A DNA stretch of 64,000 bases. Origin: Burkholderiales bacterium (GTDB taxonomy: Bacteria; Pseudomonadota; Gammaproteobacteria; Burkholderiales; Ga0077523). The translations under genes were made by a program, and so were the position numbers. The stretch spans positions 1-64,000 of the forward strand of contig JAIEQG010000022.1 in NCBI GenBank assembly GCA_019747905.1, given 5' to 3'. Below, piece after piece: positions 39,770 through 59,259 of this stretch. Positions within the stretch are counted from its first letter, which is position 1. Each line of letters begins with the position of its first letter. The notes under the pieces were generated by a model. That model was not told where the DNA came from. It did no database searches and was given only the letters and a program-made list of their open reading frames with translations.

Positions 39770-39789
39770 GGGGGCCTCGAGTCGTGGGG

Positions 39790-40755: not shown

Positions 40756-40774
40756 TTGGAATTCCGCCCTCGGC

Positions 40775-41380: not shown

Positions 41381-41384
41381 CGTC

Positions 41385-41460
41385 AGCCCTCTCGGGGCGG
41401 CCCGGCGAGGGCTGGCCCGCTCGGGGGAAAGGGCCGCGGGCCCATCAGGGCGGTCATCAC
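41385..41460. repeat. GC-rich palindromic repeat (family A-like variant)
   Basis: CTCGGGGCGGCCC, GAGGGCTGGCCC, CTCGGGGGAAAGGGCCGCGGGCCC; the same blocks occur at 15171-15239. It fills the dmmD-dmmA gap inside an operon and would form a stable hairpin in the transcript. Confidence 0.6.
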
Positions 41461-41461
41461 C

Positions 41462-42607
41462 TCAGCCCCTGCCCACGACCGTGCGCTTCTTCTTCTCCGG
41501 GTCGTCGAAGGTGAGGGTGTGCGCGATGGCGGGGCAGGAGACATTCTTGCCCCGAACCTCGAGCTTGGTGCCCTGCACCGCGTACGCCGGATCGAAGCGG
41601 GCGATCGCCATGGACCGGTTGGTGAGCTTGGAGAACATGCCGCAGGTGATCACGCCCACCTTCTTGCCCGCGGACCACAGTTCGTCGCCGCCGTCGGTGG
41701 GCTGGTCGGTCTGCGCGAGCACACCGAAGATCTTCATCCGTTCCTTGCCCTTCAGCGCATAGTGCCGCTCGGCGCCGCGAAAACCGGTCTTGCCGGGACT
41801 CACCGTGAAATCGAGTCCCAGTTCCCACAGGGAATCGCCGTCCACCGCGTCGGGCTTGTCGTACGGATACATCTGGGAATTGTCGTACGGGTAGAACAGC
41901 AGATACGACTCGACCCGCAGCATGTCGAGCACCGTGAAGCGGCACGGGATGATGCCCATCGACTTGCCCTGCTCGAGGATGGTGTCCCACAGGTACACCA
42001 CGTCCTTCGCGCCGACGAACAGCTCGTAGCCGCGCTCGCCGGTGTAACCGGTGCGCGAGATCATGACGTGGCGCCCGAACAGCGTGGTCTGCAGATGGTG
42101 GAAATAATTGAGATCGTGAATGGCGGGAATGTGCTTCGCCAGGAACTCGACCGCGAGCGGCCCCTGCAACGAGATGTCGTGGATGTCGTCGTCGAACTTG
42201 ATGGCGACGTCCTTGCCCACCGCCGAGCGCGCGATCTCCTCCTGCCCGGTGCCGCTGCCATGCACGAGCAGCCAGGAGTTGGGGCTCAGGCGATAGCAGA
42301 TGCAGTCCTCCGTGAAGTAGCCGGCATCGTTCAGCATGCAGGCATAGACCGACTTGCCCGGATAGACCTTCGACAGGTCGCGCGTCGTCGCGTGCGTCAG
42401 CACGGCCGTGGCGTCGGGACCGGTGACGTGCACCTTCTTGAGGCCGCTCACGTCCATCAGTCCGGCCTTGGTGCGGATCGCGATGTGCTCCTCGTACATG
42501 TCCTTGTCGTAGGTCCACGCGGTCCCCATCCCGTTCCAGTCCTCGAGCTTCGAGCCGAGTGCCAGGTGACGGTCCTTCAGTGCCGAGGTTCTCCACGATT
42601 GCGCCAT
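41462..42607 (-). CDS. dmmD: DmmD, GcvT-like folate-binding protein of dimethylamine degradation
   Basis: 381 residues from ATG 42607 (MAQSWRTSALKDRHLALG). Aminomethyltransferase (GcvT) fold: EEHIAIRTKAGLMDVSGLKKVHVTGPDA at the start, SRTGYTGERGYELFV in the centre, and the C-terminal barrel. These proteins bind tetrahydrofolate and capture one-carbon units; here the likely job is to trap the formaldehyde released by the haem subunit as methylene-tetrahydrofolate. First of the dmmD-A-B-C set. A sarcosine- or DMSP-demethylase-like (DmdA) function would be the alternative, but the neighbours favour DmmD. Confidence 0.82.
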   Translation of the reverse strand: MAQSWRTSALKDRHLALGSKLEDWNGMGTAWTYDKDMYEEHIAIRTKAGLMDVSGLKKVHVTGPDATAVLTHATTRDLSKVYPGKSVYACMLNDAGYFTEDCICYRLSPNSWLLVHGSGTGQEEIARSAVGKDVAIKFDDDIHDISLQGPLAVEFLAKHIPAIHDLNYFHHLQTTLFGRHVMISRTGYTGERGYELFVGAKDVVYLWDTILEQGKSMGIIPCRFTVLDMLRVESYLLFYPYDNSQMYPYDKPDAVDGDSLWELGLDFTVSPGKTGFRGAERHYALKGKERMKIFGVLAQTDQPTDGGDELWSAGKKVGVITCGMFSKLTNRSMAIARFDPAYAVQGTKLEVRGKNVSCPAIAHTLTFDDPEKKKRTVVGRG

Positions 42608-42752
42608 GTATCGCCTTTCTAGCCAGTGGTTGGTCGAGGTCCGCGCCGATCGGGCGCGCACGCGGGTGTGATCCGGCCCGAAGGAGCAAAAGCGCGACCT
42701 TCGCCTGCGGTCGCGAGGGCGGTGACCAGGGCCGCACGGGCCGCCATGTCCC

Positions 42753-43283
42753 TCACCGCTCGTCCTCCTCGGCCAGCCGGCGGTAGCGGCTGTGGAAGTA
42801 CAGCAGCGGCGCACCTTCGGGATCGGTCTCGAAACGCAGGACACGGCCAAGGATGATCATGTGGTCACCGCCGTCGTACTGAGCGTGGTGGGTGCACTCG
42901 AAGCTCGCGACGGTACCTTCGAGAATGGGCGCGCCGAGCTCCGACGGCCGGTGGCTCACGCCGATCCACTTGTCGTCGCCGGTGCGGGCGAAACGATGGG
43001 ACAACGCCCGCTGGTCCTCGCGCAGGACGTTGACGACGAAACCCGGGGTCTCGAGGAAGGGACGCAGGGTGAAGGAGGTGCGCGCGAGGCTGAACAGGAC
43101 CAGCGGCGGTTCCAGGGAAACCGAATGGAACGAGTTCACCGTGATTCCCAGCAATCCGTCGCCGGGGTGGGCAGCGGTAATGATCGTGACTCCTGTTGCG
43201 AACATGCCGAAAGCTCGCCGCAGTTGCGCCGCGTCGACGGCGGCCGCGTCCTGACCCACCGCATCGGTGCGCAACGAGGACAT
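42753..43283 (-). CDS. Flavin reductase family protein
   Basis: 176 residues with the split-barrel flavin reductase fold (HpaC/DIM6 type): RRAFGMFATGVTIITA near the N-terminus, then ITVNSFHSVSLEPPLVLFSLAR and FVVNVLREDQ, and the C-terminal histidine segment DHMIILGRVL. It reduces free FMN or FAD with NAD(P)H. It lies 145 bases upstream of dmmD on the same strand, so it may supply reduced flavin to the demethylation system or to the flavin-linked dehydrogenases; it is not one of the four Dmm subunits. Confidence 0.88.
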   Translation of the reverse strand: MSSLRTDAVGQDAAAVDAAQLRRAFGMFATGVTIITAAHPGDGLLGITVNSFHSVSLEPPLVLFSLARTSFTLRPFLETPGFVVNVLREDQRALSHRFARTGDDKWIGVSHRPSELGAPILEGTVASFECTHHAQYDGGDHMIILGRVLRFETDPEGAPLLYFHSRYRRLAEEDER

Positions 43284-43812: not shown

Positions 43813-45507
43813 ATGAGCGCAACGAGTGCCACCGTGGCGGCGGCAGCCGCCGGTCAGCTGCATCGCAATATCAACTGGACCGGTGCATTCTGGATCGCGA
43901 GCGGCGTGCCCGCCCTCGTCCTCTTTTCCATCGGCGGCATCGCCGGCAACGTCGGGACCTTCGCGTTCATGATCTGGATCCTGTCCATGGTCATGGGCTT
44001 CATCCAGTCGTTCACCTATGCCGAGATCGCCGGGCTGTTCCCGAACAAGTCCGGCGGCGCTTCGATCTACGGCGCCACGGCCTGGCTGCGCTACGGCAAG
44101 CTGATCGCGCCGCTGTCGGTCTGGTGCAACTGGCTCGCGTGGACACCGGTGCTGTCGCTCGGGTGTTCCATCGCCGCCGGTTACATGCTGAATGCCATCG
44201 CACCGATCCCGGCGGCCGACTCGGCCGCGGTGCAGCAGTGGCTCGCCGCCAATGCAGGTGCCAAGCCCGAGGACGCGGTGGCGGCGCTCACGCCCGCCAT
44301 CCGCACCTGGGCCTTGGTGAGCTTCCAGATTCCGGGGGTAGTGGACATCGCCCTCAACGCGACGTTCTTCATCGGGGCTGCGTTGATGCTGCTGGTGTTC
44401 GCGATCCAGCATCGAGGAGTCCTCGGCACTGCCCGCGTGCAGATGTGGATCGGCATCCTGGTGATCCTGCCGATGCTGATCGTCGGCGTCGTCCCGCTGC
44501 TCAACGGCGCGGTGGACTGGAACAACTTCTCTCCGCTGGCGCCGCTGGCGGCACCGTACGAGGCGAAACCGGGCTCGTGGAACATCACCGGGTTCACGCT
44601 CGTGTTCGGTGCCATGTTCATCGCCGCGTGGTCCACCTACGCCTTCGAGACAGCGATCTGCTACACGAGCGAGTTCCGCGACCCGGCGAAGGACACGTTC
44701 AAGGCGATCTTCTTTTCGGGCCTGCTGTGCCTCGTGCTGTTCACGCTGGTGCCCTTCACGTTCCAGGGTGTGCTGGGGCTCGAAGGCATGCTCGCCACCC
44801 CGATCGTGGACGGCTCCGGCGTGGCCGAGGCCATGGCGACGATGGTACGCGGCGGCCCGTTCATCAACGGCCTGCTGCAGATGCTGATGATCCTCGCGCT
44901 GATCCTGAGCATCATGACCGCCATGGCGGGTTCGTCGAGGACCCTCTATCAGGGTTCCGTGGACGGCTGGCTGCCGAAGTACCTCTCCCACGTGAACGTG
45001 CATGGCGCGCCCACCCGGGCCATGTGGACCGACCTCGGCTTCAACCTGATCCTGCTCACGTTCGCCTCGTCCGACGCCGCGAGCTACTTCACGATCCTCG
45101 CCATTTCCAACTGCGGCTACATCATCTTCAACTTCCTCAACCTCAACGCGGGCTGGATCCATCGCATCGACAATGGCCACATCAAGCGGCCTTTCCGTGC
45201 ACCCAACTTGCTGCTGGCGCTCGGAGCGTTGTTCGCCTTCGTCAACGCCGGCTTCATGGGCGCCGGTGCCAAGGTCTGGAACCCGAATGCGCTCTGGTTC
45301 GGCCTGATCGCGGCCCTGCTGATCGTGCCGGTGTTCTGGTATCGCCACTACGTCCAGGATCGCGGCCGATTCCCCGACCACATGCTGGCGGACCTCGGGC
45401 TCGAGGGTCAGACTCTCTCGGAACGCAAGGCCGGCATTCTTCCGTACGTGACGCTGGCGGCCGGTGTCGCCGTCGTCCTGATCGCGCACTTCACGTTCAC
45501 GCTGTAG
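43813..45507 (+). CDS. APC superfamily amino acid/amine permease
   Basis: 564 residues, about 12-14 membrane helices. It opens with NWTGAFWIASGVPALVLFSIGGIAGNVGTF, and helix 1 carries the Gly-rich unwound segment typical of amino acid-polyamine-organocation carriers. GTG/ATG alternatives were considered; ATG 43813 is preceded by AAGGGAG. It is divergent from the dmm genes and converges on mgsC, so it sits between the two methylamine modules and is a likely importer of methylated amines, gamma-glutamyl amides or glutamate. Substrate specificity is inferred from context alone. Confidence 0.87.
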   Translation: MSATSATVAAAAAGQLHRNINWTGAFWIASGVPALVLFSIGGIAGNVGTFAFMIWILSMVMGFIQSFTYAEIAGLFPNKSGGASIYGATAWLRYGKLIAPLSVWCNWLAWTPVLSLGCSIAAGYMLNAIAPIPAADSAAVQQWLAANAGAKPEDAVAALTPAIRTWALVSFQIPGVVDIALNATFFIGAALMLLVFAIQHRGVLGTARVQMWIGILVILPMLIVGVVPLLNGAVDWNNFSPLAPLAAPYEAKPGSWNITGFTLVFGAMFIAAWSTYAFETAICYTSEFRDPAKDTFKAIFFSGLLCLVLFTLVPFTFQGVLGLEGMLATPIVDGSGVAEAMATMVRGGPFINGLLQMLMILALILSIMTAMAGSSRTLYQGSVDGWLPKYLSHVNVHGAPTRAMWTDLGFNLILLTFASSDAASYFTILAISNCGYIIFNFLNLNAGWIHRIDNGHIKRPFRAPNLLLALGALFAFVNAGFMGAGAKVWNPNALWFGLIAALLIVPVFWYRHYVQDRGRFPDHMLADLGLEGQTLSERKAGILPYVTLAAGVAVVLIAHFTFTL

Positions 45508-45547: not shown

Positions 45548-46924
45548 TCAGGCAGGCGTCACACCGGGTATCCAGCTGGTGCCGGCCAGAGGTACCCGCG
45601 CCATGGCGGCAGCTTCGATGGTGAGTGCCACCAGGTCCTCGCGTTCCAGATGGTGCACGTTCGACTTGCCGCACGCACGCGCCACCGTGGTGAGCTCCAT
45701 GTTCATCGTCTTGAAGTAGTTCTTGAGGCGCTTAGCGCCCACCGCCGGATCGAGACGCTGCTCCAGGATCGAGTCCTGCGTGGTGATCCCCACCGGGCAC
45801 TTGCCGGTGTGACAGTGATGGCAATAGCCGGGCGCCGTACCGAGTTTCGCGTAGTCCTCTTCGGCGGAGTGGTTTGCACCGGCCTGGAAGTACGATTCGT
45901 GATTGCAGCCCAGCGCGATCAGCGTGCCCTGCCCCACCGAAACGGCATCGGCACCGAGCGCCAGGGCCTTCGCCACGTCGGCTCCGGTGCGAATGCCGCC
46001 GGAGATGACGAGTTGCACCTTGCCGCGCATGTCGAGTTCCTCGAGGGCCTCGACCGCCTGCCTCAATGCTGCCAGGGTCGGAATGCCCACGTGTTCGATG
46101 AACACCGACTGCGTGGCGGCGGTACCCCCTTGCATGCCATCCACCACCACCACGTCGGCGCCGGCGTGCACCGCGAGCTTCACGTCGTTGTAGACGCGGG
46201 TGGCGCCGATCTTCACGTAGATCGGCACCTGCCAGTCGGTGATCTCGCGCAGTTCGTTGATCTTGATCACGAGATCGTCGGGACCAGTCCAGTCGGGATG
46301 GCGGCAGGCCGAGCGCTGGTCGATACCCTCGGGCAGGGTGCGCATCTTCGCGACGCGCGGATTCACCTTCTGCCCGAGCAGCATGCCACCGCCGCCCGGC
46401 TTGGCGCCCTGGCCGATCACCACTTCGATCGCATCGGCCCGGCGCACGTCGTCGGGATTGAAGCCGTAGCGCGACGGCAGGCACTGGTAGACGAGTGTCT
46501 TCGACGACTGCCGCTCTTCCTGCGTCATGCCGCCGTCGCCGGTGGTGGTGGACGTACCGAGTTCCGTGGCCGCCCGTCCGAGCGCTTCCTTCACGCGCGC
46601 CGACAGCGAGCCGAAACTCATGCCGGCGAACGTGATGGGGATGTCCAACTCCACCGGTTTCCTGGCGAAGCGCGTCCCGAGCACGGTTTTCGTGTGGCAC
46701 TTCTCGCGATAGCCCTCCAGCGGATAGCGCGACACCGAACCCGCGAGGAAAACCAGATCGTCGAAGTGCGGCAGCTTCCGCTTCGCTCCGAGCCCGCGGA
46801 TCTCGTACAAGCCATGGGCAGCAGCGTTGTGGATGTAGTCGATGACGGTGCGGTCGAAGCCGGCAGACTCCTCCCGCTGGATGCGCTTCGGCGCTTGGGC
46901 AGCGTGTTCGACTGGTTTGTTCAT
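45548..46924 (-). CDS. mgsC: N-methylglutamate synthase subunit C (FMN-binding glutamate-synthase-like)
   Basis: 458 residues from ATG 46924 (MNKPVEHAAQAPKRIQ). Corresponds to the FMN-binding barrel of glutamate synthase: PITFAGMSFGSLSARVKEALG, TGDGGMTQEE, KPGGGGMLLGQKV and VVVDGMQGGTAATQ. The iron-sulfur cysteines are seen in YCHHCHTGKCPVG. With MgsA and MgsB it forms N-methylglutamate from gamma-glutamylmethylamide or methylamine and glutamate. The same fold is called GlxD in rhizobia, so context decides. Last gene of an eight-gene run; its ATG is 1 base from the mgsB stop. Confidence 0.9.
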   Translation of the reverse strand: MNKPVEHAAQAPKRIQREESAGFDRTVIDYIHNAAAHGLYEIRGLGAKRKLPHFDDLVFLAGSVSRYPLEGYREKCHTKTVLGTRFARKPVELDIPITFAGMSFGSLSARVKEALGRAATELGTSTTTGDGGMTQEERQSSKTLVYQCLPSRYGFNPDDVRRADAIEVVIGQGAKPGGGGMLLGQKVNPRVAKMRTLPEGIDQRSACRHPDWTGPDDLVIKINELREITDWQVPIYVKIGATRVYNDVKLAVHAGADVVVVDGMQGGTAATQSVFIEHVGIPTLAALRQAVEALEELDMRGKVQLVISGGIRTGADVAKALALGADAVSVGQGTLIALGCNHESYFQAGANHSAEEDYAKLGTAPGYCHHCHTGKCPVGITTQDSILEQRLDPAVGAKRLKNYFKTMNMELTTVARACGKSNVHHLEREDLVALTIEAAAMARVPLAGTSWIPGVTPA

Positions 46925-46925
46925 G

Positions 46926-47612
46926 TCAGTACTCCTGGTTGGCGTCGGCGTTCCAGTGGTAGAGGGAACGGGCGGACGCCACACGCTTGAACTCGGTGGG
47001 GTCGTAAGGGAAGCCGGCACGCTTCAGCAACTCGGCGACGGCAGCATGATCGGCGGCAGTCATGGGCTCCTGTTGCGCATCCGCCCCCAGGGACTTGATC
47101 TTCCCGCGCACGTAGATCACCGCTTCGTACAGCGAATCGCCCAGCGCATCGCCGGCGTCGCCGCAGATCACGAGCCGCCCTGCCTGCGCCATGAAGGCGG
47201 AGTAGTTGCCGACCCGGCCGCCGACGACGATGTCGATGCCTTTCATGGAGATGCCGCAGCGCAGGCTCGCGTCGCCCTCGATGATCAACGTACCGCCATG
47301 GCCGGTCGCGCCGGCGGATTCCGAAGCGAAACCCTTCACCCGCACCGAGCCGGACATCATGTTCTCGGCCACTCCCCAGCCCACGTTGCCGTGCACCGTG
47401 ATGTTGGCGAACTTGTTCATGCCGCCGACGTAATAACCGCCCTGGCCGCGGATGTCGATGTCCACCGCGTGGTTCACGCCGACGGCGATGCTGTGGCTGC
47501 CGTTCGGATTGAGCACGTCGATGTGCTTGATGCCGCTGCCGGCCAGATCGTGATGCAGGAACTGATTCAGCTCGCGCACCGAGGCTTTCGCCAGGTCGAA
47601 GGTCTTGTCCAT
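46926..47612 (-). CDS. mgsB: N-methylglutamate synthase subunit B (GXGXG domain)
   Basis: 228 residues from ATG 47612 (MDKTFDLAKASVRELNQFL), which follows GAGAAGCGG; an in-frame ATG at 47645 would overlap mgsA by 13 bases. Right-handed beta-helix of the glutamate synthase alpha-subunit C-terminal (GXGXG) type: repeated VDIDIRGQGGYYVGGM, ITVHGNVGWGVAENM, VVGGRVGNYSAFMAQ. It is the structural subunit linking the amidotransferase (MgsA) and FMN (MgsC) parts. Confidence 0.88.
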   Translation of the reverse strand: MDKTFDLAKASVRELNQFLHHDLAGSGIKHIDVLNPNGSHSIAVGVNHAVDIDIRGQGGYYVGGMNKFANITVHGNVGWGVAENMMSGSVRVKGFASESAGATGHGGTLIIEGDASLRCGISMKGIDIVVGGRVGNYSAFMAQAGRLVICGDAGDALGDSLYEAVIYVRGKIKSLGADAQQEPMTAADHAAVAELLKRAGFPYDPTEFKRVASARSLYHWNADANQEY

Positions 47613-47632
47613 GGTGGTCCGCTTCTCGATCG

Positions 47633-48529
47633 CTAGACTGTCCATACGTAGAGCTCCTCGGGCATCGGTTCGAACAGCTTCGCGTCGTTCACGCCCGGCA
47701 GATGGGCGAGCCCGCGAAACTCCGAGCTGATGGCCACGTAGTCGTCGGTCTCGGCCACGATCGCCGGCTTGCAGGCGAACGCATCGCGCACCAGCGCCAG
47801 CTGGTTGTCGGTGCCGATCAGGAAGGTGTAGAAGCCGTCCAGTTCCTCGAAGCCCTTGCGCAACGCCTGCTCGAGCGTGTCGCCTTCGCGCGTGCGCCAC
47901 TCGAGAAAGCGCGTGGCGGCTTCGGTATCGTTGTCGGTCTCGAACCGGATGCCGCGGTGCTCGAGCTTGCGCCGGACCATGAAGGGGTTGGAGATGGTGC
48001 CGTTGTGCACCAGACAGAAATCCTCGCCCGCGGTGAACGGATGCGCACGATCCGGCGTCACCGCCGATTCGGTCGCCATGCGGGTGTGTCCGACCACATG
48101 GGTGCCGGTCAGCTTCGGGAAATCGTAGCGCTTCGCGATGTCGGCCGGATGGCCGATGTCCTTGTAGATGTCGATGCGGCGACCGGCCGAGAGCACGTGC
48201 AGCGCCGGATAGTTCTGCCGCGTCCACGCTTTGACGGCATCCGCCGGTTCGTCGCACGTGAGCACCGCATGGTTGCCCTTGACCGCCATCTGCGCTTCGG
48301 TGCCGAAGCGCTTGATGAAGTCCGCTTCGAACGGCGCCCAGTCGTAATCCCAGGCGGGCGCGTACAGGCTGTACTTGCGATCGGTCTCGGGCAGGCGGTC
48401 GGTGAACACCGCGAGCCCGGCCGATTCCGGACCGCGCGAGGCCATCTCCTCCAGCATCGGCACCATCAGTTCACCCAATCGGCCGCGCATGGCCGGGTTC
48501 TTCACCAGCAATCCCACGATTCCGCACAT
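47633..48529 (-). CDS. mgsA: N-methylglutamate synthase subunit A (class II glutamine amidotransferase)
   Basis: 298 residues. N-terminal nucleophile Cys2 (MCGIVGLLV) and the Ntn-amidotransferase segments SRGPESAGLAVFTD, GHTRMATESAV, HPFTAGEDFCLVHNGTISN and SSEFRGLAHLP are all present. In the N-methylglutamate pathway this subunit works on gamma-glutamylmethylamide, releasing methylamine to the synthase site. It lies between gmaS and mgsB on the minus strand, 32 bases downstream of gmaS. A generic glutamine amidotransferase (GlxB) would look the same. Confidence 0.88.
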   Translation of the reverse strand: MCGIVGLLVKNPAMRGRLGELMVPMLEEMASRGPESAGLAVFTDRLPETDRKYSLYAPAWDYDWAPFEADFIKRFGTEAQMAVKGNHAVLTCDEPADAVKAWTRQNYPALHVLSAGRRIDIYKDIGHPADIAKRYDFPKLTGTHVVGHTRMATESAVTPDRAHPFTAGEDFCLVHNGTISNPFMVRRKLEHRGIRFETDNDTEAATRFLEWRTREGDTLEQALRKGFEELDGFYTFLIGTDNQLALVRDAFACKPAIVAETDDYVAISSEFRGLAHLPGVNDAKLFEPMPEELYVWTV

Positions 48530-48561
48530 GATCGAACTCCTTTTCTGGCCGCGAGTTCCGT

Positions 48562-49902
48562 CTAGAAGAACTCGAGATAGCGTTCCACTTCCCAGCCCGA
48601 CACATGGCGCTGGTACTCGATCCATTCCATCCGCTTCAACCGGATGAACTCCGCCGCGAGGTCCTTGCCGAGACCTTCGCACAGCACCTTGTCGGCCTCG
48701 AGCGCATCGACCGATTCGGCGAGGCTCTGCGGCAGCACGTCGATGCCGGCCTTCTTCAGCTGGGCGTCGGTCCACTCGTACAGGTTGGTGTTGTTGGGCT
48801 CGCCCGGATCCATCTTCTTCTCGACCCCGTCCATGCCCGCGGCGATGATGGCAGCACTGGCGAGGTAGGGATTCACCGCGGCATCCGGCAGGCGCATCTC
48901 CAGACGTCCGTAGGGAATGCGGACCATGCAGGTGCGGTTGTTGTCGCCGTAGGTCACGTACGCCGGCGCCCAGGTGGCCCCGGACAGTGCACGACCCACC
49001 ACGAGACGCTTGTATGAATTCACCGTCGGCGCGCAGATGGCCGTGAGACCGCGCGCGTGATGCAGCAGGCCGCCCATGAAGTGGTAGCCCATCTTCGAGA
49101 GTCCCAGGCCACGCTTGTCCTTGGTGTCGTAGAACAGGTTCTTCGTCTTGCCGTCGCCGATCGACAGGTGGAAATGCGCTCCGGACCCGGTGCGATTCGA
49201 GAACGGCTTCGGCATGAACGTGGCGATCAGGCCGAGCTGGTTCGCGATCTCGCTCGCCGCCATCTTGACGAAGATGTGCCGGTCGGCCGTCGTCATTGCG
49301 TCGGCGTAGGTGTAGTTCACCTCGAACTGGCCGTTCGCGTCCTCGTGGTCGATCTGGTAGACGTCGATCCCGACCTTGCGGCATGCCCCGGTGATCCGGG
49401 TCAGGAACTCGGCGCTGCGCGCGAGCCCCTTGTAGTCGTAGCAGGGCTTCTCGAGCGAGTCGGTGTCGTCGCAGGGTCCGACGCTGCCGTCCGGCCGGCG
49501 CTTGAGCAGCATGAATTCCGGTTCGATCCCGGTGTAGAGCGTGAGGCCCTTGGCCTTCAGCCGGTCGGTCGCGTTCTTGAGCGCGAGCCGCGAATCGTAG
49601 GGATAGGGCTTGCCCTTCACGTGGCCCCACGTGGCCATGCGCGCGAACCCGGGCATCCAGGGAATCGGCTGGAGCGTGTCGAGATCGCCCACCGCCATGT
49701 AGTCGGGGCCTTGCGGTCCCATGCCGAAGCCCCACAGCGCGAAGCCAGCGAAGCCGGCGCCGTCGGTGAGCACCATCTCGAGGTGCTCCACCGGCACGGC
49801 CTTCGCCTTGGCGGCACCGTGGATGTCCACGAACTGCGCCAGGATGTACTGGATGTTCTCGTCCTTGAAGAGCTTCTTCGCCTGCGCCGGTGTCATGGTC
49901 AT
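48562..49902 (-). CDS. gmaS: Gamma-glutamylmethylamide synthetase (glutamine synthetase-like)
   Basis: 446 residues from ATG 49902, preceded by AAGGGGAAG. Glutamine-synthetase fold: N-terminal beta-grasp ([25 protein letters not shown]), metal/glutamate residues in [13 protein letters not shown], the ATP-site [15 protein letters not shown], and [21 protein letters not shown]. It joins methylamine to the gamma-carboxyl of glutamate with ATP. Placement between the dehydrogenase (mgd) and synthase (mgs) genes is the reason for calling GmaS rather than a GlnT-type glutamine synthetase, which is the closest alternative. Confidence 0.87.
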
Positions 49903-49924
49903 CTTCCCCTTCTGGTGCGATGAA

Positions 49925-50608
49925 TCATTGGAGGTTCTGAAGTTGCGCGTCCGGGAACGCGCTCGCGAATCCGACGGCACCTCCGCCCAGTTCCGCGGCG
50001 ATGCCCGTCAACGTTTCCCACAGGTAAGGGCCCGAGGTGCCGTCGCACCACAGGCGCCAGCAATCGGTTCCCGCCAGGCGTTGCTGCAACACGGTGACCG
50101 ACACGCCCACCATCAGGGTCAGCGTGACGACGCGTGCGTCGCGCGTCTGCGCGGTGAAATCGACGTTGCAGGTCTGGACCAGCAGTTCGTTCACCAGCTC
50201 TCCGGTGAGCGCGAGGGCGCAATCCTGCCGCGGTACCGGGTAGACGCCGGGCGATCCCGGCTTCAGGTCCGGCGCGAGCCGCGCCACCGCCTTGCCGGAG
50301 AATCCGTCCTCGACCAGGAACTCGGTGCGTGCGAGGCGCGCCACCGCACCGCCACCTTCCAGCGCTGACCAGGTGTTCGGCTGGTCGGGGACCGGTACTC
50401 CGCGCGCGGACAACCAATCGGCAGCACCCGGACCCTTGAGCCCGATCCGCGGCAACGCCGACAGATCGCAGATGCCGAGTTTCGCGCTGCGATCGGGGCG
50501 ATCGTCGCGCAGCTTCGACGCGAGCGGCATGCCAGCCACCTCGATCCATTCAGGATGCAAGGTGGCCAAGGCGTGGGCCAGGGGACTCGAACGCAGCGCG
50601 GCTGCCAT
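49925..50608 (-). CDS. mgdD: N-methylglutamate dehydrogenase subunit D (sarcosine oxidase gamma-like)
   Basis: 227 residues from ATG 50608, which overlaps the mgdC stop (TGATG). Sarcosine oxidase gamma-subunit (SoxG) fold: [29 protein letters not shown] and the folate-related barrel ending [22 protein letters not shown]. With MgdC it helps hold tetrahydrofolate so that the N-methyl carbon is released as methylene-tetrahydrofolate. It is 22 bases upstream of gmaS. Confidence 0.85.
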
Positions 50609-53514
50609 CAGTCCACCACCTTCTGCCGCAGGCCTTCGGCGTCGTAGAACGGCGTGGGCACCACGCGCGCCTGCACCATGGTGCCGCCGTCGGCCCGGAT
50701 GAAGAACGGCGAGTTGAGCTCGGTCATGTCGGGGGCCACGAAGGCCAGACCCACGTGCTTGCCCAGCGTGTCGCTCCAGGCGATGCTGGTGACCCGCCCG
50801 GCGATCGCGCCATTGCGCACGACCAGATGACATTCGCGCGGTGCGGTCGAGGCGCCGATGGCATCGAGCTCGAAGCCGACGAGCTTCTGCCGCGGCCCGT
50901 TCTTGCGCACGATCTCAACGCTCCGCTTGCCCACGAAGAACGGCTTGTCGACCTTCACCGCCCATTCGAGTCCGGCTTCGTCCGGTTGCGTGAGGCCGTC
51001 GGTGTCCTGCCCGATGATGATGTGGCCTTTCTCCAGTCGCAGCAGGCGCTGCGCCTCGACCCCGAAGGGACGGATCCCATCGTCCTGGCCGGCCTCCATC
51101 AGGGCGTCCCAGACGCGCGCCGCGCGGTCGGCCGGCACGTGGATCTCGTAGCCGAGTTCGCCGACGAAGCCGACGCGCATCAGGCGCGCCGGCACGCCGG
51201 CCACATCGGCTTCGCGCAGCGCAAGATACGGAAAGGCCTCGTTCGACAGATCGAGTGACGTCAACTTGCGCAGCACCGCCCGTGCCTTCGGGCCGGCAAG
51301 GTTCATGGCGGCGAAGGCACCGGTCGCGTTGACGATGCCCACTTCGAGATTCCACTGTGCGTTCCAGCGCTGCAGTTCGCGATAGACGGTGGTCGAACCC
51401 GTCGTGGTCGTCGTGAAGTAGAAGTGCTGCTCGGACAACCGCGCCACCACGCCGTCGTCGATGACCACGCCGCTTTCGTCCAGCATCACCGCGTAGCGTG
51501 TGGTGCCCGGCTTCATGCCGGAGAACTTTGCGGTGTACACCCGTTCCAGGAATGCACCCGCGTCCGGCCCGTACAGCTCCATCTTGCCGAGCGTGCCCAC
51601 GTCGATGAGACCGACCGCGTCGCGCACCGCGCGCGCCTCGTCGCGCACGATCTCGCTCTTGCGCTTGCCCGGCAGGGCGTAATACTCGGGCCGCAGCCAG
51701 ACACCAGCCTGCATCCAGACGGCACCGAGGCCATCGTGCCGGCTGTGGAGCGGCGTTTCGCGATGCACGTTGAAACCCCGCCCGGCCAGGTGCGACAACG
51801 GCACCGGATGGAAGAACGGCCTGGCGGTCGTCGTGCCCACTTCACCGGGCGAGACACCGCGAATCCGCGCGAGGACGCGGATCGCGTTCATGTTCGAATG
51901 CTTGCCCTGGGATGGGCCCATGCCCACCGTCGTGTAGCGCTTCATGAGCTCGATGTTGTCGAAGCCTTCCTGCGCGGCATTGTGGAAGTCGCGCAGATGC
52001 AGGTCTTCGTCGAAATCCACGAAGTTCTTGCCGGCGGGATGTTCGACGATTGGCCACGGATGCGATGGCGGCGAGCGCTCGGGCGCGATCGAGAAACTGC
52101 GCTCGGGCGTGTCGAAACCGAGATGGCGTGCGGCTTCCGTCCCGGCCCGCTCACCGTCCTCGCAGCGCGAATCGAGCGCGTACACCCCGTTCACGCGCCC
52201 GCAGGCGAACACGCCGGCAGGCAAGCGCTCGGGGACGAACTGGTGCGTGGTCGTGTCGTAGCGCATGCTCGCGCCGGCCTGATACAGCAGGGCCGCCGCC
52301 GGAGCCCAGCCCACGCTCATCACCAGCCCGTCGCACGCGAACTTCTGCGGTGACGCCGTGTCGGGCTTGCCGTCGGCCCCGGTCGGGCACACGGTGGCGG
52401 CCACCAGCCTGTCACCGACGGCCTCGGCCTCCAGCACGCAGTGGCTCTTGAGCACCGGGATGCCCACCTGCTTCACTCGCATCGAGAGCGCACTCGGCTC
52501 GCCGTCGGCACGCAGGTCCGCGACGGCCGCGATCGCGACGCCATGGGCCATCAGGTCGAGCGCCGCGCGATAGCCGTCGGCATTGGCGGTCAGCACCAGC
52601 GCCTTGTCCATCGGCTTGACGGCGTAGCGATACAACAATCGCTGGGCCGCGGAAGCGAGCATGACACCCGGCGCATCGTTGTTGCGGAACACCGCCGGCT
52701 GCTCGAACGCGCCGCCGGCCACGATCACCGCGCGGGGGCGCAGCTTGGTCATGCGCTGCGCGTCCACCAGCGGGATCCAGTGGTCGGCGTAGTACCCCGC
52801 GGCCAGCGTACCGGGACGCACCGACACGTTGGGGAGATCGGCAAGGTCGCGCTCGAGATCGCGCAACATCTCGAAACCTTCGATGGAACCGCCGCGCTGA
52901 TAACCAAGCGATCCGCCGATGCGCGCATTCTCGTCCACCAGCACGACCTTGGCGCCGGCCCGCCCGGCGGCGAGCGCCGCATGCAGCCCTGCAGGACCGG
53001 CACCCACGACCAGGACATCGCAGAAGTCGTAGCGCTTCGGCGTGCGGATGTGGGGCGCGCCGAAGTCGAGCGTACCGAGGCCCGTCATGCGGCGGAACAC
53101 CCGCTCCCAGAAGGGAAACAGCGCCTTCGGCCGATGGAATGCCTTGTAGTAGAAACCCACCGGCAGGAAGCCGCCGAGCGCGTTCAGGATGCGCAGCCGG
53201 TCGCCGGATGCACCGCCCGCGGTATTGACGCTGGTGAGCGCCATGCCTTGCTCGAGCGGCTCGACGTCGGCACGCAGATTGAGCCGGGCGCCCGCCTGCA
53301 TCATCGTGTTCACGTCGTGGTTCGCCAGCGACAGCACACCGCGCGGCCGGTGGTACTTGAAGCTGCGACCGAGCACGTGCACGTCGGCGGCCCACAGCGC
53401 GCTGGCGGGTGTATCGCCGGCACAGCCGCGATACGCACGGCCATCGAACGTGAAATCGACGCCGCGCGAACGGTCGATCCATTCCCCGGTGACGGGTGGC
53501 AGGCGCGAGCTCAT
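50608..53514 (-). CDS. mgdC: N-methylglutamate dehydrogenase subunit C (sarcosine oxidase alpha-like)
   Basis: 968 residues. Order of domains: N-terminal ferredoxin-like segment (GVDFTFDGRAYRGCAGDTPASAL) with too few cysteines for a [2Fe-2S] cluster; dinucleotide-binding domain starting DVLVVGAGPAGLHAALAAGR near 160; second Rossmann part; and a C-terminal GcvT folate-binding domain from about 610 (FSGMKPGTTRYAVMLDESG, VGFVGELGYEIHVPAD, LRLEKGHIIIGQDTDG). It oxidises N-methylglutamate together with MgdA, transferring the C1 unit to tetrahydrofolate. Its ATG overlaps the mgdB stop (ATGA). Confidence 0.9.
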   Translation of the reverse strand: MSSRLPPVTGEWIDRSRGVDFTFDGRAYRGCAGDTPASALWAADVHVLGRSFKYHRPRGVLSLANHDVNTMMQAGARLNLRADVEPLEQGMALTSVNTAGGASGDRLRILNALGGFLPVGFYYKAFHRPKALFPFWERVFRRMTGLGTLDFGAPHIRTPKRYDFCDVLVVGAGPAGLHAALAAGRAGAKVVLVDENARIGGSLGYQRGGSIEGFEMLRDLERDLADLPNVSVRPGTLAAGYYADHWIPLVDAQRMTKLRPRAVIVAGGAFEQPAVFRNNDAPGVMLASAAQRLLYRYAVKPMDKALVLTANADGYRAALDLMAHGVAIAAVADLRADGEPSALSMRVKQVGIPVLKSHCVLEAEAVGDRLVAATVCPTGADGKPDTASPQKFACDGLVMSVGWAPAAALLYQAGASMRYDTTTHQFVPERLPAGVFACGRVNGVYALDSRCEDGERAGTEAARHLGFDTPERSFSIAPERSPPSHPWPIVEHPAGKNFVDFDEDLHLRDFHNAAQEGFDNIELMKRYTTVGMGPSQGKHSNMNAIRVLARIRGVSPGEVGTTTARPFFHPVPLSHLAGRGFNVHRETPLHSRHDGLGAVWMQAGVWLRPEYYALPGKRKSEIVRDEARAVRDAVGLIDVGTLGKMELYGPDAGAFLERVYTAKFSGMKPGTTRYAVMLDESGVVIDDGVVARLSEQHFYFTTTTTGSTTVYRELQRWNAQWNLEVGIVNATGAFAAMNLAGPKARAVLRKLTSLDLSNEAFPYLALREADVAGVPARLMRVGFVGELGYEIHVPADRAARVWDALMEAGQDDGIRPFGVEAQRLLRLEKGHIIIGQDTDGLTQPDEAGLEWAVKVDKPFFVGKRSVEIVRKNGPRQKLVGFELDAIGASTAPRECHLVVRNGAIAGRVTSIAWSDTLGKHVGLAFVAPDMTELNSPFFIRADGGTMVQARVVPTPFYDAEGLRQKVVD

Positions 53515-53759
53515 GCGGGCAGCCACGTGCGGATCACACGATCCGCCACCGTGTCGCGCTCGGCGTAGAACCACGTGCCGCTCGCGATGTGGTACCACCA
53601 CTCGATCTTCACGCCCGGAACGCCGCTGCGATTGAACACGTAGTCGGCCCATTCGCGGTCGGTACAGGTCGCCCCGTCCGGCATGGGGCGCACTTCACCA
53701 CCGTACGCGAACTCCGAGACCGGCCGCGGACCATTGACGGGGCAGGTCAGGATCTTCAT
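53511..53759 (-). CDS. mgdB: N-methylglutamate dehydrogenase subunit B (sarcosine oxidase delta-like)
   Basis: 82 residues, the SoxD family length. It begins MKILTCPVNGPRPVSEFAYGG, where canonical SoxD has CxxC; the second cysteine is replaced by Asn, so the usual zinc site is probably lost. The later DREWADYVFNRSG and HIASGTWFYAERDT match the family. It is a small structural subunit. It overlaps mgdC by 4 bases and is separated from mgdA by 135 bases carrying a repeat. Confidence 0.88.
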   Translation of the reverse strand: MKILTCPVNGPRPVSEFAYGGEVRPMPDGATCTDREWADYVFNRSGVPGVKIEWWYHIASGTWFYAERDTVADRVIRTWLPA

Positions 53760-53796
53760 GTCCCGAAGCCCCGACAACCTGAGGCGCCCACCGCGG

Positions 53797-53872
53797 AGGA
53801 GAAGCAAAACCTGAAGACGAAGGATTCGGTTTTCCCTCGCGTCCTCCGCGCTGAGAGCTTCTGTTCAGCGGA
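53797..53872. repeat. Diverged inverted repeat between mgdA and mgdB (family B-like)
   Basis: GGAGGAGAAGCAAAACCTGAAGACGAAGGATTC and CCCTCGCGTCCTCCGCG form an imperfect inverted element related to the CCTTCGTG family. It lies inside the mgd operon, in the only long gap between these subunit genes, and would make a hairpin in the mRNA. Confidence 0.5.
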
Positions 53873-53894
53873 CGAATGTGCCGGCTGTCGCATG

Positions 53895-55136
53895 TTAGTG
53901 ACCCACGCTCGCTGCGCCTTTCTCGCCGGTGAGCTCGTAGCGCTCGAACCGCGAGAGATTGAAGCCCTTGATCAATTCATGATTGCGGCCGTTGGCCACG
54001 GTCCACGACATGGTCTTGCCGCACACCGGGGTCGCCTTGAAGCCCCAGGTGCCCCAACCTGCGTCGAGATAGAACCCTTCCACCGGCGTGGTCCCCATGA
54101 TGGGCGCGAAATCCGGCGTCATGTCGGCCATGCCCGCCCACTGCCGGTTCACCCGCGCGTTCGAGAGGAACGGGAACATGTCGAGCATGTGTGCGGCGAG
54201 CCCCTCGACGAAATCGAGGGTCGAGCGCGTGGCATGCAGCTCGTAGGGATCGAGCGATGCGCCCATCACCAGTTCGCCGCGCGCCGACTGGCTCACGTAC
54301 ACGTGCAGGCTGCCGGACACCAGGATCGGATCGAGCCACGGCTTCATCGGTTCGGTGACCATCGCCTGCAGCGGATGGATGTAGATCGGCGTGCGCAAGC
54401 CGACCATGTCCGTGACCCGCGGCGTGAACCCCGCCACGGCCGACAGCACCCGCGGGGTCGCGATGTCGCCTTTGGTGGTGCGGACCCCGGTGACCTTGCC
54501 GCTCTCGACGTTGATGCCGAGCACCTCGGTCTGCTGATGGATCTCCACGCCGCGCTGATCGGCACCGCGGCCGTAGCCCCAGGCCACCGCATCGTGCCGT
54601 GCGATGGCGCCCGGCGCGTGATACAGCGCACCGAGAATGGGTGCGTGCCCGCCGCACGTGATGTCGATCTGCGGCGCCGCCTTCCTGACTTCGTCCGGAC
54701 CGACCAGTTCGCTGTCGACGCCGAAATGCTTGTTCACCTCCGCACGCCAGCGCATGGTGCGCACGGCGGAGTCGGTGTGCGCCAGCGTGAAGTGCCCGCG
54801 GGTGGCATAGAACAGGTTGAGGTCGAAATCCTGCGAGAGGTCCTGCCACAGCCGCACCGATTGGTCGTAGAACGCCACGCCCTCGGGCGTCAGGTAGTTC
54901 GAGCGGATGATCGTGGTGTTGCGGCCGGTGTTGCCGCCGCCGATATAGCCGCGCTCGAGCACCGCCACATTGGTCATCCCGTGATCGCGCGCGAGGTAGT
55001 AGGCCGACGCCAGTCCGTGGCCGCCGGCGCCGATGATCACGGCGTCGTAGGCGTTCTTCAGGCGCTCGGGCGTCCGGAACATCCGGGGTTCGGGATGTTT
55101 CGAGGCGAATGCGAAGCGCAGGAGCTGATACGGCAT
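53895..55136 (-). CDS. mgdA: N-methylglutamate dehydrogenase subunit A (sarcosine oxidase beta-like)
   Basis: 413 residues. FAD-dependent D-amino-acid-oxidase-type fold: dinucleotide motif YDAVIIGAGGHGLASAYYLARD at about residues 30-51, the flavin site GGGNTGRNTTIIRSNYL and the C-terminal MADMTPDFAPIMGTTPVEGFYLDAGWGTWGFKATPVCG. It carries the flavin that oxidises the N-methyl C-N bond of N-methylglutamate (or sarcosine in the SoxB relatives). It is the first gene of the mgd-gmaS-mgs run. The 125 bases upstream contain an AT-richer stretch and are the probable promoter. Confidence 0.9.
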   Translation of the reverse strand: MPYQLLRFAFASKHPEPRMFRTPERLKNAYDAVIIGAGGHGLASAYYLARDHGMTNVAVLERGYIGGGNTGRNTTIIRSNYLTPEGVAFYDQSVRLWQDLSQDFDLNLFYATRGHFTLAHTDSAVRTMRWRAEVNKHFGVDSELVGPDEVRKAAPQIDITCGGHAPILGALYHAPGAIARHDAVAWGYGRGADQRGVEIHQQTEVLGINVESGKVTGVRTTKGDIATPRVLSAVAGFTPRVTDMVGLRTPIYIHPLQAMVTEPMKPWLDPILVSGSLHVYVSQSARGELVMGASLDPYELHATRSTLDFVEGLAAHMLDMFPFLSNARVNRQWAGMADMTPDFAPIMGTTPVEGFYLDAGWGTWGFKATPVCGKTMSWTVANGRNHELIKGFNLSRFERYELTGEKGAASVGH

Positions 55137-56447: not shown

Positions 56448-56879
56448 TCAGCGCACCACCGTCACGGGACAGTGCGCCTTGGCCACGACGTCGGCGGCAA
56501 CCGAACCGAGCATGAGTCGCGCAAGGCCGGTGCGCCCCAGCGAACCGGTGACGATGTGGTCGAAGCCGTTCTTCTCGGCGTAGTCGATGATGGCGGCAGC
56601 GACGTTGCCGCCCTGGGTCGTGACACACTGCACCTGCGTGAGGCCGGCGTTGCGGGCTTTTGCGGCGGCCGCGGACAGATCGCGATGCGTCTGGGCAACC
56701 GCCAAGTCGAGCACCTGGGAATCCCAGAACGCCGAATTGGCGGCCTTCTCCACCGTGACGCGTTCGACCGTGACGAAGGTGAGTGCCGCCCCGAGTTGCG
56801 AAGCCAGTTCGACCGCCGCGTCCACGGCCTTCGCAGAAGCCGTGGACCCGTCAGTGGCACAGAGGATCTTCCGGATCAT
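56448..56879 (-). CDS. Universal stress protein (UspA family)
   Basis: 143 residues with the full UspA fold: KILCATDGSTASAKAVDAAVELASQLG at the N-terminus and the ATP-binding loop GSLGRTGLARLMLGSVAADVV (G-2x-G-9x-G-S) near the end, so ATP binding is expected. It lies 24 bases after the permease gene. Usp proteins are often encoded beside transporters and can regulate them, which fits this placement. Confidence 0.92.
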   Translation of the reverse strand: MIRKILCATDGSTASAKAVDAAVELASQLGAALTFVTVERVTVEKAANSAFWDSQVLDLAVAQTHRDLSAAAAKARNAGLTQVQCVTTQGGNVAAAIIDYAEKNGFDHIVTGSLGRTGLARLMLGSVAADVVAKAHCPVTVVR

Positions 56880-56903: not shown

Positions 56904-58310
56904 TCAATAGCCCTTCGGCCGGGGCCACGGCATGGTGAACTGGTCGCCGCGCCGCACGAACTTGTAGCGATGGAACACGAACCAGGCGGAAGCGAGAATG
57001 TAGAACGCCATCACCGCCACCAGCGTCGCGCCGTAGCCGAGGAACGTCGCGAAGTACGTGGCGATGCACAGCACCAGCAGCACGATGGCAGGCAGCGGAT
57101 GGAACGGATGCACGTATCCGCGCTTGATGCTGCCGAGCGGCCACTGCTTGCGGAATTTCATCATGTTGAACGACATGAAGGTGTAGCCGAGCAGGCCCGA
57201 CAGGATCGAGAAGCTGATCACCTGGTCGAGCGGCGCCTGGAAGGCGAACACCACCGCAATCGGAATCAGGAACAGGATTGCCCGGTACGGCGTGCGGTAG
57301 CGCGGATGCACCGCGCCGAACCACGTGGGCAGATAGCGATCGCGCCCCATGGAAAACCACGCGCGTGACGCGTCGTTGATGCAACCGTTGGCCGATGCGA
57401 TGGCCGAGAAGATCGTGCCCACGAACAGGATCACCTGCAGCGTGCCGCTGCCTGTGAGCTTGGCCGCGTCATACAGCGGCGTGATCGCCTGCCCGAGATA
57501 CTCCCACGGCATCAGTCCGGCGGCGACGTACCACGTGAGCGACGCGGCGATCAGCAGCGTGATCATGCCGCTCATGGTGCCGAGCGGAATCGAGCGACCG
57601 GCGGAGCGCACTTCCTCTGCCGCCTGGCACGTGCCCTCGATGCCGAGGTAGTACCACATGGCGAACTGCATGGCCGCGATCACGCCGATCCAGCCGTAGG
57701 GCAGATCTACCAGGAGGTCCTTGTGGAGCAACACCTTGGCAGGCTCCCAGGGCGACACGCCCACGAACAGGATGACGATCGCGAGGAACGCCGCCGCCGT
57801 GATCACGAAGTTCACGGTGAGGGTCATGAACACGCCACGGTAGTTGAGCCACGCGAGGAGCGCGATCGACAGCACCACGAACGGCCGGGGATCGAGATCG
57901 GCGTGGCCGAGTTCGCCGGCCACCGCCTTCATGAGGTCGCCGACCACGAGGGCATCGCCGGCTTCCAGCATCGTGTACGCCATCACAAGATACAGACCCA
58001 CGTTGAAGGCCATCAACGGCCCCACGATGTGCTTCGCCTGCGTGTATTGCCCACCCGCCGCCGCCACCGTGGACGTGACTTCGGAGTCGATCATCGCGAC
58101 ACAGGTGTAGAGCAGACCGACCACCCAGCACGCGATGAGCGACCCGTAGGCTCCGCCTTTGCCGACGGAGAAGTTCCAACCCATGAACTCGCCCACCAGC
58201 ACGATGCCCACGCCGAGGGCCCACACGTGCACCGGGCCCAGCACCTTGAGCAAGGCGATGCGCGTCGGTTGTCCGGATGCGCTGCCCGCTGCCGTCGTTG
58301 CCTCACTCAT
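56904..58310 (-). CDS. APC family permease, ethanolamine-permease-like
   Basis: 468 residues from ATG 58310, preceded by AGGGGAGAGACG. About 12 membrane helices; helix 1 region ALGVGIVLVGEFMGWNFSVGKGG and the IEGTCQAAEEVRSAGRSIP loop are characteristic of the ethanolamine transporter (EAT) branch. Its place in a methylamine block suggests uptake of a small amine. Three genes for tiny membrane proteins precede it on the same strand, and a UspA gene follows, an arrangement that suggests accessory or regulatory subunits. Confidence 0.9.
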   Translation of the reverse strand: MSEATTAAGSASGQPTRIALLKVLGPVHVWALGVGIVLVGEFMGWNFSVGKGGAYGSLIACWVVGLLYTCVAMIDSEVTSTVAAAGGQYTQAKHIVGPLMAFNVGLYLVMAYTMLEAGDALVVGDLMKAVAGELGHADLDPRPFVVLSIALLAWLNYRGVFMTLTVNFVITAAAFLAIVILFVGVSPWEPAKVLLHKDLLVDLPYGWIGVIAAMQFAMWYYLGIEGTCQAAEEVRSAGRSIPLGTMSGMITLLIAASLTWYVAAGLMPWEYLGQAITPLYDAAKLTGSGTLQVILFVGTIFSAIASANGCINDASRAWFSMGRDRYLPTWFGAVHPRYRTPYRAILFLIPIAVVFAFQAPLDQVISFSILSGLLGYTFMSFNMMKFRKQWPLGSIKRGYVHPFHPLPAIVLLVLCIATYFATFLGYGATLVAVMAFYILASAWFVFHRYKFVRRGDQFTMPWPRPKGY

Positions 58311-58335
58311 CGTCTCTCCCCTGACGCTAGACCCG

Positions 58336-58476
58336 CTATTCCTCGCCTTCGCGCGACGACAGCAGGAAATCCTCGTCGAAGTTCCGGCCGACACCCCAGG
58401 CGTCCGCCAGCATCCAGATGAACAGCAGGGCCGATACCGCCCATGCCGCGTAGCTCAACAGATCCCAGGCATCCAT
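58336..58476 (-). CDS. Very small membrane protein, 46 residues
   Basis: Start MDAWDLLSYAAWAVSALLFI with AGGAGAG before the ATG (8-10 bases), an excellent ribosome binding site. One membrane helix (about residues 6-25) is followed by an acidic tail ending SSREGEE. It is 25 bases upstream of the permease gene and 15 bases downstream of the next small gene. No family is recognised. The strong ribosome binding site and tight packing argue that it is real. Confidence 0.7.
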   Translation of the reverse strand: MDAWDLLSYAAWAVSALLFIWMLADAWGVGRNFDEDFLLSSREGEE

Positions 58477-58491
58477 GCCGTCTCTCCTGCT

Positions 58492-58896
58492 CTAGTTGCC
58501 GCCGTCGCCAAAGCGCTCGCGCACCACCTCGCGGTACTCCCGGTCGGAGATGCGGAACACGAACACGAAGTAGCCGACGATGACGGCGATGGTGACGATC
58601 AACGCCATCGGATCGACGGCGTAGTCGAAGCGGTTATCGATGATCGGTTTCGCGGTCTCGGGTGTGTGGCCGAGCTTTTCCCACTGCTGCGCCTGTACCG
58701 GCGTCTGCCCGAGCCCCTGCCAGGTCGCCTCGACCTTCGTCGCTTCCTCCTTCGCCTCCTCGGGCGGTGCCGCGCTGTGGTCCGCCTTCAGGTAGACCGG
58801 TGCCAACAGGCAGATGAACACCAGTACCATGAGCAGGATGCTGTCGATGAACTGACCCATGCCCCCTTGCTTCGGGGGCGCGTAGTGCTGCGCCAT
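58492..58896 (-). CDS. Small two-helix membrane protein, 134 residues
   Basis: From ATG 58896 (MAQHYAPPKQGGMGQFIDS), preceded by GAGGAGGGGAAC. Helix 1 is SILLMVLVFICLLAPVYL and helix 2 VDPMALIVTIAVIVGYFVFVF. Between them lies a charged 55-residue loop with Glu/Ala/Lys and QTPVQAQQWEKLGHTPE. The C-terminus is cytoplasmic-like and basic/acidic mixed. No homologue is recognised. It is part of a three-gene small-protein set ahead of the permease gene. Confidence 0.75.
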   Translation of the reverse strand: MAQHYAPPKQGGMGQFIDSILLMVLVFICLLAPVYLKADHSAAPPEEAKEEATKVEATWQGLGQTPVQAQQWEKLGHTPETAKPIIDNRFDYAVDPMALIVTIAVIVGYFVFVFRISDREYREVVRERFGDGGN

Positions 58897-58974
58897 GTTC
58901 CCCTCCTCTCGTAACCCCTGACCATCGAATCGGTTCGCACCGGACCCCAGTCCATCGGAGCGCGAATGCGCCAC

Positions 58975-59259
58975 CTAGCGCGAGCGGTTCTCGTCCAGGT
59001 GGCGGATGTCCAGACCGTAGATGTGTTCCTTGTCCTCGCGATAGTGACGGATCATCGCGAGGATCGAGGCGGTGTTGAAGGCGAGCAGAAACAGCGCCGC
59101 AATTGCGAGTGCTATGCGTATGCCGCCGTTCGCGACGAGCGCGTCCACCGCGAAGTAGACGAAACCCGTGACCAGCCAGAGCAGGGCCACGAACAGCAGC
59201 GCCATGATCCGGTCGCGCGCGAACATGCGGTCGATGCGTGAGGCGAGTGACTCCGCCAT
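58975..59259 (-). CDS. Small two-helix membrane protein, 94 residues
   Basis: Start ATG 59259 after GGAGGAG. Charged N-terminal tail (MAESLASRIDRMFARDR), helix 1 IMALLFVALLWLVTGFVYFAVDAL, helix 2 IRIALAIAALFLLAFNTASILAMI, and a charged C-terminal tail HYREDKEHIYGLDIRHLDENRSR. The layout resembles the tiny DUF485-type partners of solute/sodium symporters, but no sequence match is claimed. It is the first gene of the permease run; the divergent gshA lies 255 bases away. Confidence 0.75.
   Translation of the reverse strand: MAESLASRIDRMFARDRIMALLFVALLWLVTGFVYFAVDALVANGGIRIALAIAALFLLAFNTASILAMIRHYREDKEHIYGLDIRHLDENRSR

Follow-up and report, generated by a model that had tools for sequence, protein, structure and literature searches.

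What do three genes for tiny membrane proteins do directly in front of a permease gene at the head of a methylamine-oxidation cluster? The question is raised by a 64,000-nt stretch of Burkholderiales DNA (contig JAIEQG010000022.1 of assembly GCA_019747905.1, positions 1 to 64,000; hereafter the window), in which the genes that we call sm1, sm2, and sm3 and a gene for an APC-superfamily permease stand first in an N-methylglutamate (NMG) cluster whose genes all point the same way. The answer we favor, with a probability of about 0.5, is that this gene run specifies an uptake system for methylamine (methylammonium), consisting of the permease and three obligate small membrane partners.

All genes of the run lie on the minus strand. 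The first, sm1 (58975..59259), is an open reading frame (ORF) with a strong Shine-Dalgarno sequence that encodes a 94-residue membrane protein with two predicted spans; sm2 (58492..58896) encodes one of 134 residues, in which two predicted spans flank a roughly 60-residue loop, and sm3 (58336..58476) one of 46 residues with a single predicted span and a conserved SSREG tail. The gene for the proposed methylamine importer follows at 56904..58310 (468 amino acids, ATG at 58310). Behind it come a universal stress protein gene (Usp; 56448..56879; PF00582, E = 2.3e-32), the gene for a 227-residue membrane-anchored protein, P6 (55757..56440; TTG start as listed), and a small conserved membrane-protein ORF, P7 (55262..55636), whose true start may be further in and which gave a weak, below-cut-off match to DUF5683. 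The NMG-pathway genes mgdABCD, gmaS, and mgsABC, recognized from ORFs and domains, occupy 45548..55136 in the same direction. The gaps from each stop to the next start along sm1-sm2-sm3-permease-Usp-P6 are 78, 15, 25, 24, and 7 nt, and a purine-rich Shine-Dalgarno run stands just 5′ of the starts of sm1, sm2, sm3, and the permease gene. The original prediction, made from the sequence alone, had placed 94-, 134-, and 46-residue membrane-protein genes with strong ribosome binding sites directly before the permease, and UspA and then a membrane-anchored protein after it; its layout was correct, coordinates and sizes included, although the NMG cluster behind the set and P7 went unmentioned.

That prediction was to count as refuted if, among other outcomes, other genomes did not keep the small genes next to this permease. 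We compared 85 loci, namely, the best 80 of 271 genome-contig relatives found with a permease profile and 5 chosen plasmid loci, the latter drawn from 22 plasmid records with 67 to 81% permease identity. Profile hidden Markov models detected sm2 and sm3 in all 85 loci and sm1 in 83, directly upstream of the permease and on the same strand, and the two loci without sm1 (L078 and L081) start at a contig end; the order was kept throughout, and the prediction was not refuted on this count. The spacing between sm1, sm2, sm3, and the permease was short or consisted of 4-nt overlaps across the loci, with medians of 10, 8, and 36 nt. After the permease, a P6 homologue was present in 83 loci and a P7 homologue in 80, the missing cases again being contig ends. 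The Usp homologue, on the other hand, adjoined the permease in 26 loci and was absent in 59. The loci cover alpha-, beta-, and gammaproteobacteria, with hosts including Methylophaga, Methyloversatilis, Methylotenera, Methylobacillus, Paraburkholderia, Methyloligella, Aminobacter, and Paracoccus. Two loci (L114 and L117) titled as a Klebsiella pneumoniae metagenome-assembled genome hold methylotroph genes, and their titles look mistaken.

The association of the trio with this permease is far beyond chance. Among 399 genomes of the order, the sm2 profile (E < 1e-40) and the permease profile (E ≤ 1e-100) matched the same 15 genomes (Fisher p = 1.7e-27). Marginal extra matches to the sm2 profile (0.001 to 0.008) were found in 3 other genomes of the order, within frames longer than 900 amino acids, and the window's own genome contained a second, marginal match. 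In a phylum-wide set of 398 genomes, sm2 was detected in 14 (12 of them outside the order set), always beside sm1, sm3, and the permease, and an independent sm2 search over the order and the phylum recovered the trio and the permease together in 27 of 27 distinct genomes. Of 60 relatives, 8, including the window's own genome, carried a member of the permease clade (at least 77% identity, the next being at 32%), and none of these 8 lacked any of the three small genes; this set is not independent of the 85 loci, because some of the loci come from the same genomes. Related genomes also contain more distant APC permeases, among them true ethanolamine permeases; 21 of their loci were inspected, and sm1 to sm3 were absent from all of them.

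The three small genes are all under purifying selection. The median ratio of nonsynonymous to synonymous substitution rates (dN/dS), calculated from the usable pairs among 17 tried per gene, was 0.12 for sm1 (17 pairs), 0.10 for sm2 (15 pairs), and 0.11 for sm3 (17 pairs), compared with 0.03 for the permease (16 pairs) and 0.19 for P6 (13 pairs). Such selection on sm3 means that it is a real gene. Its 46 codons had been held to be too few for routine annotation, which is not always so, since alphaproteobacterial sm3 homologues of about 55 amino acids are annotated as hypothetical proteins. Hydropathy predicted two spans in sm1 (24 of 24 aligned sequences), two in sm2 (25 of 25), and one in sm3 (24 of 24). 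From the charge distribution, both termini of sm1 and of sm2 would lie inside, with a loop of about 60 residues exported in sm2, and sm3 would have its N-terminus outside and its acidic tail inside.

Pfam and NCBIfam profile scans matched none of the three proteins to a known family (the NCBIfam scan of sm1 used the window protein only). Matches to FA_desaturase, Ac76, FixQ, BCCT, HdeD, and NF045534 fell below cut-off or involved few members and were set aside as chance. DUF485 and DUF4212 proteins are small partners of solute:sodium symporters. Like sm1 to sm3, they are small proteins of the membrane whose genes immediately precede that of a secondary carrier. However, those systems combine one small gene with a solute:sodium symporter, whereas the set described here combines three genes with an APC permease, and neither DUF485 nor DUF4212 appeared at E ≤ 0.1 among the matches listed for 24 sm1, 25 sm2, and 24 sm3 members (for sm1, 25 of 30 weak families were listed).

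The permease itself belongs to the APC superfamily, matching Pfam AA_permease_2 (PF13520) with 104.5 bits against a gathering threshold of 27.0 (E = 8.5e-30). Against the NCBIfam model for ethanolamine permease (Eat), TIGR00908, it scored 186.3 bits, under the cut-off of 381.75, whereas true members in related genomes scored 597 to 647 bits. The earlier description of the carrier as ethanolamine-permease-like therefore holds as a statement of kinship, TIGR00908 being the nearest curated model and the acidic motif of transmembrane segment 1 (TM1) being shared, but the label of a true ethanolamine permease was rejected because the cut-off was missed. Both carriers are of the APC superfamily and have G-E-[YF]-x-G-W in TM1 and I-E-G in TM6. 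They differ in that identity is only about 27 to 32%, in that the permease has its own TM3 (MIDSEVTST) and TM8 (ANGCINDA) motifs, and in that Eat loci lack the trio. The permease forms a clade of its own, with 67 to 100% identity inside and at most 32% to anything else seen. Its TM1 reads GEFMGWN, versus GEYFGWS in true ethanolamine permeases, and an amino-acid-transporter-like relative (L017) has no acid at this site; the TM1 acid would fit an amine without a carboxylate as the substrate.

Two other APC systems invite comparison. The heteromeric amino-acid transporters consist of an SLC7 light chain and an SLC3 heavy chain; there, too, an APC carrier is obligately paired with a membrane protein, and the permease profile matched SLC7 chains, among others. 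The SLC3 partner has a large outer domain, however, and the partners in the window are three tiny proteins of 46 to 134 amino acids without one. The trimethylamine N-oxide (TMAO) permease TmoP is an APC-type carrier that is likewise found in methylated-amine clusters. Its model, NF053774 (cut-off, 690 bits), was not among the 14 NCBIfam matches of our permease up to E = 5, but it identified a second APC-type carrier in the window with 869 bits (43816-45507, plus strand, facing the mgs genes), and no sm1-sm3 set stands before that gene.

The link of the run to methylamine use is strong. Domains of mgdA, mgdB, mgdC, gmaS, mgsA, mgsB, and mgsC were all found in the window cluster, which makes it an NMG cluster by domain assignment, without NMG-specific models, and with mgdD placed by position only. 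NMG genes lie within about 10 kb of the set in 64 of the 85 loci. The other 21 loci still keep the set order, and 18 of the 19 genomes or records searched from them gave an mgsC match, although two matches had only 45% identity and lay in long frames; these are in G768 and G769, where the frames are 651 amino acids long. One of the 21 loci, L063, belongs to genome G002, which has mgsC, and the sole negative among the 19 is a 62-kb plasmid record searched alone. Within the order, mgsC was found in 14 of the 15 permease genomes versus 28 of the 384 others (Fisher p = 3e-14). In the exception, G093, frames resembling mgdA, an amidotransferase, and a fused glutamate synthase adjoin the set, as read by eye. 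Next to the set in this genome (contig C5, locus L199, 3637-6482), one 650-amino-acid frame seemingly fuses mgsB- and mgsC-like parts and is perhaps a variant NMG synthase.

Two published studies are relevant here. During growth of Methyloversatilis universalis FAM5 on methylamine, the NMG genes and "co-clustered conserved proteins" are reported to be upregulated 6- to 10-fold, and the abstract of that report names induced amino-acid permeases (PMC5023235). In Aminobacter niigataensis MD1, we found the set on plasmid paAMD1, which is described as also bearing NMG genes (PMC9699525).

If the run is a methylamine uptake system, the permease would import methylammonium and so supply GmaS and the cytoplasmic NMG pathway. 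Its obligate partners would be sm1 with two spans, sm2 with two spans and an exported loop, and sm3 with one span, an outer N-terminus, and an acidic cytoplasmic tail; they would most likely be small subunits bound to the permease that stabilize it or tune its gating. P6, with a membrane anchor and a putative cytoplasmic TtfA-like domain, may be a further accessory, and Usp an optional member. The data establish the gene unit with its conservation and coding selection, the kinship of the permease, and the genomic tie to NMG genes; the substrate, transport direction, membrane topology, physical association, and regulatory role are inferred.

Several observations weigh against this reading. Within the order, 28 of the 42 mgsC genomes, two thirds of the NMG-type genomes sampled, have no such permease; the pathway therefore does not need it, and other uptake routes exist. 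One of them may be at hand in the window, where an ammonium transporter gene, amtB (34644-36014, plus strand; TIGR00836 above cut-off), lies near the cluster as a possible second route for methylamine, and in the Pseudomonas C5pp cluster, Amt is named as the transporter for methylamine (PMC8292978). Table 3 of the FAM5 study includes no entry for the permease or for any of the small genes (PMC5023235). Our literature search, in which supplements and subscription papers were outside the scope, yielded no transport, deletion, or co-purification data and no paper that names the small genes or gives this permease a function.

In a mirror-tree comparison over all shared loci, the small genes correlated with the permease at r = 0.71 to 0.84 (n = 82 to 83) and mgsC at 0.46 (n = 47). 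On 38 common loci, however, the small genes reached 0.83 to 0.88 and gmaS 0.89; we therefore rejected co-evolution as specific evidence for the small genes, since gmaS equals them. A model of an sm3-permease read-through had a pLDDT of 63, with much of the permease at low confidence and the sm3 helix alone confident, and was too poor to use for docking. As to the original idea of a small-subunit-assisted amine importer, the conserved order and the methylamine link bear it out, while the unspecific mirror-tree and the unusable docking model leave the carrier-subunit role unproven.

Two apparent gene fusions were also put aside. On pSymB of Sinorhizobium meliloti Ak57 (L043, 11400-13371), sm3 and the permease seem to form a natural fusion, but one extra base opens the frame and close relatives keep the stop. 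The sm2 gene of this locus also has no stop; both stops were most likely lost by sequence error, and the fused frame was not used for this reason. Similarly, permease and Usp appear joined in one frame in Methyloceanibacter (L095), which comparison with L082 suggests to be a one-base slip; this fusion was left unused.

The nearest rival is that sm1 to sm3 and P6 serve solely to assemble, stabilize, or quality-control the permease, as a chaperone set for a single client that stands outside the working carrier, which we consider possible, if unlikely. Its case comes mostly from P6, for which a confident model was obtained (pLDDT, 91.9; pTM, 0.87). The top Foldseek match of this model was TtfA (E = 1.5e-3), with a TM-score of just 0.35 to 0.43. 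On realignment, P6 gave a Z score of 12.1 to TtfA over 156 residues at 13% identity and 9.0 to 11.2 to chains of three translocon structures, which we take to be CCDC47; the next row had 7.5. Among solved structures, nothing else stood out past TtfA, the translocon chains, and secretion chaperones. The modeled P6 thus appears to share a TtfA-like/CCDC47-like fold over most of its domain. TtfA is described as an essential accessory of the MmpL3 transporter, in a complex that a second protein stabilizes (PMC6593404), and CCDC47, contained in the 9i78 structure, as part of an intramembrane chaperone complex (PMC12572126). Moreover, the small genes lead the run and are therefore made first, as would suit assembly factors.

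Against this, fold likeness alone shows no function for P6, and selection holds P6 less tightly than the small genes (median dN/dS, 0.19). TtfA, the mycobacterial transporter accessory whose fold the P6 model matches, serves MmpL3, a lipid carrier that belongs to a different family from the APC permease.

The two roles might also be combined: in a bacterium, sm1 to sm3 and P6 could act both as intramembrane chaperones dedicated to a single client and as its subunits, with P6 as a CCDC47/TtfA-type anchor; they would build the amine permease, hold it, and stay on it as a five-part carrier. We regard this as a speculative idea with rather low odds. To our knowledge, such a division of labor between chaperone and subunit has so far been described in two cases, the eukaryotic PAT complex, in which CCDC47 acts together with Asterix at the ribosome-bound translocon, and the MmpL3 complex of mycobacteria.

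A second rival retains the multi-part carrier and gives it another substrate or mode, such as methylamine/ammonium exchange, transport of dimethylamine, ethanolamine, or N-methylglutamate, or export of the ammonium formed by the pathway. Methylamine is indicated by kinship and gene context only, and the clade has TM3 and TM8 motifs of its own. Genes for dimethylamine use are near in several loci and in the window, where a likely dimethylamine monooxygenase cluster (38726-42850, minus strand) combines reductase-like and aminomethyltransferase-like genes with one for a subunit of a haem-dependent oxidative N-demethylase (PF11927). The NMG genes are nevertheless the most constant neighbors of the set, present near 64 of the 85 loci, whereas 8 loci have the DUF3445 dimethylamine gene in range, and ethanolamine is disfavored by the failed TIGR00908 cut-off. 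A different substrate or mode therefore seems doubtful to us.

A third possibility, that the set is a sensor in which the permease serves as a transceptor and the small proteins, Usp, and P6 relay the presence of methylamine, is very improbable. It would agree with the position of the set as the first genes of the run and with Usp adjoining the permease in the window and in 26 of the 85 loci, but Usp is absent from the other 59, and profile scans revealed no signaling domain in sm1 to sm3 or P6. Finally, the small genes are hardly likely to be bystanders kept only through block inheritance of the cluster, for although the distances of gmaS follow those of the permease no less closely than the distances of the small genes do, the set order is kept in the 21 loci without NMG genes nearby, and all 27 distinct genomes with sm2 had the permease as well.

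We therefore retain the reading of the run as a methylamine uptake system. Carriers with small partner proteins are known already, but the same literature search found no description of an APC carrier with an obligatory trio and a TtfA-like anchor in a methylamine pathway. The set is a concrete, conserved candidate that is open to single-gene deletion in culturable Methyloversatilis, Methylophaga, Aminobacter, and Paracoccus. If our reading is true, it would link an APC carrier to a trio of tiny membrane proteins left as hypothetical by annotation, and P6, as modeled, may be an addition to a fold so far seen in accessory proteins of transporters and translocons.

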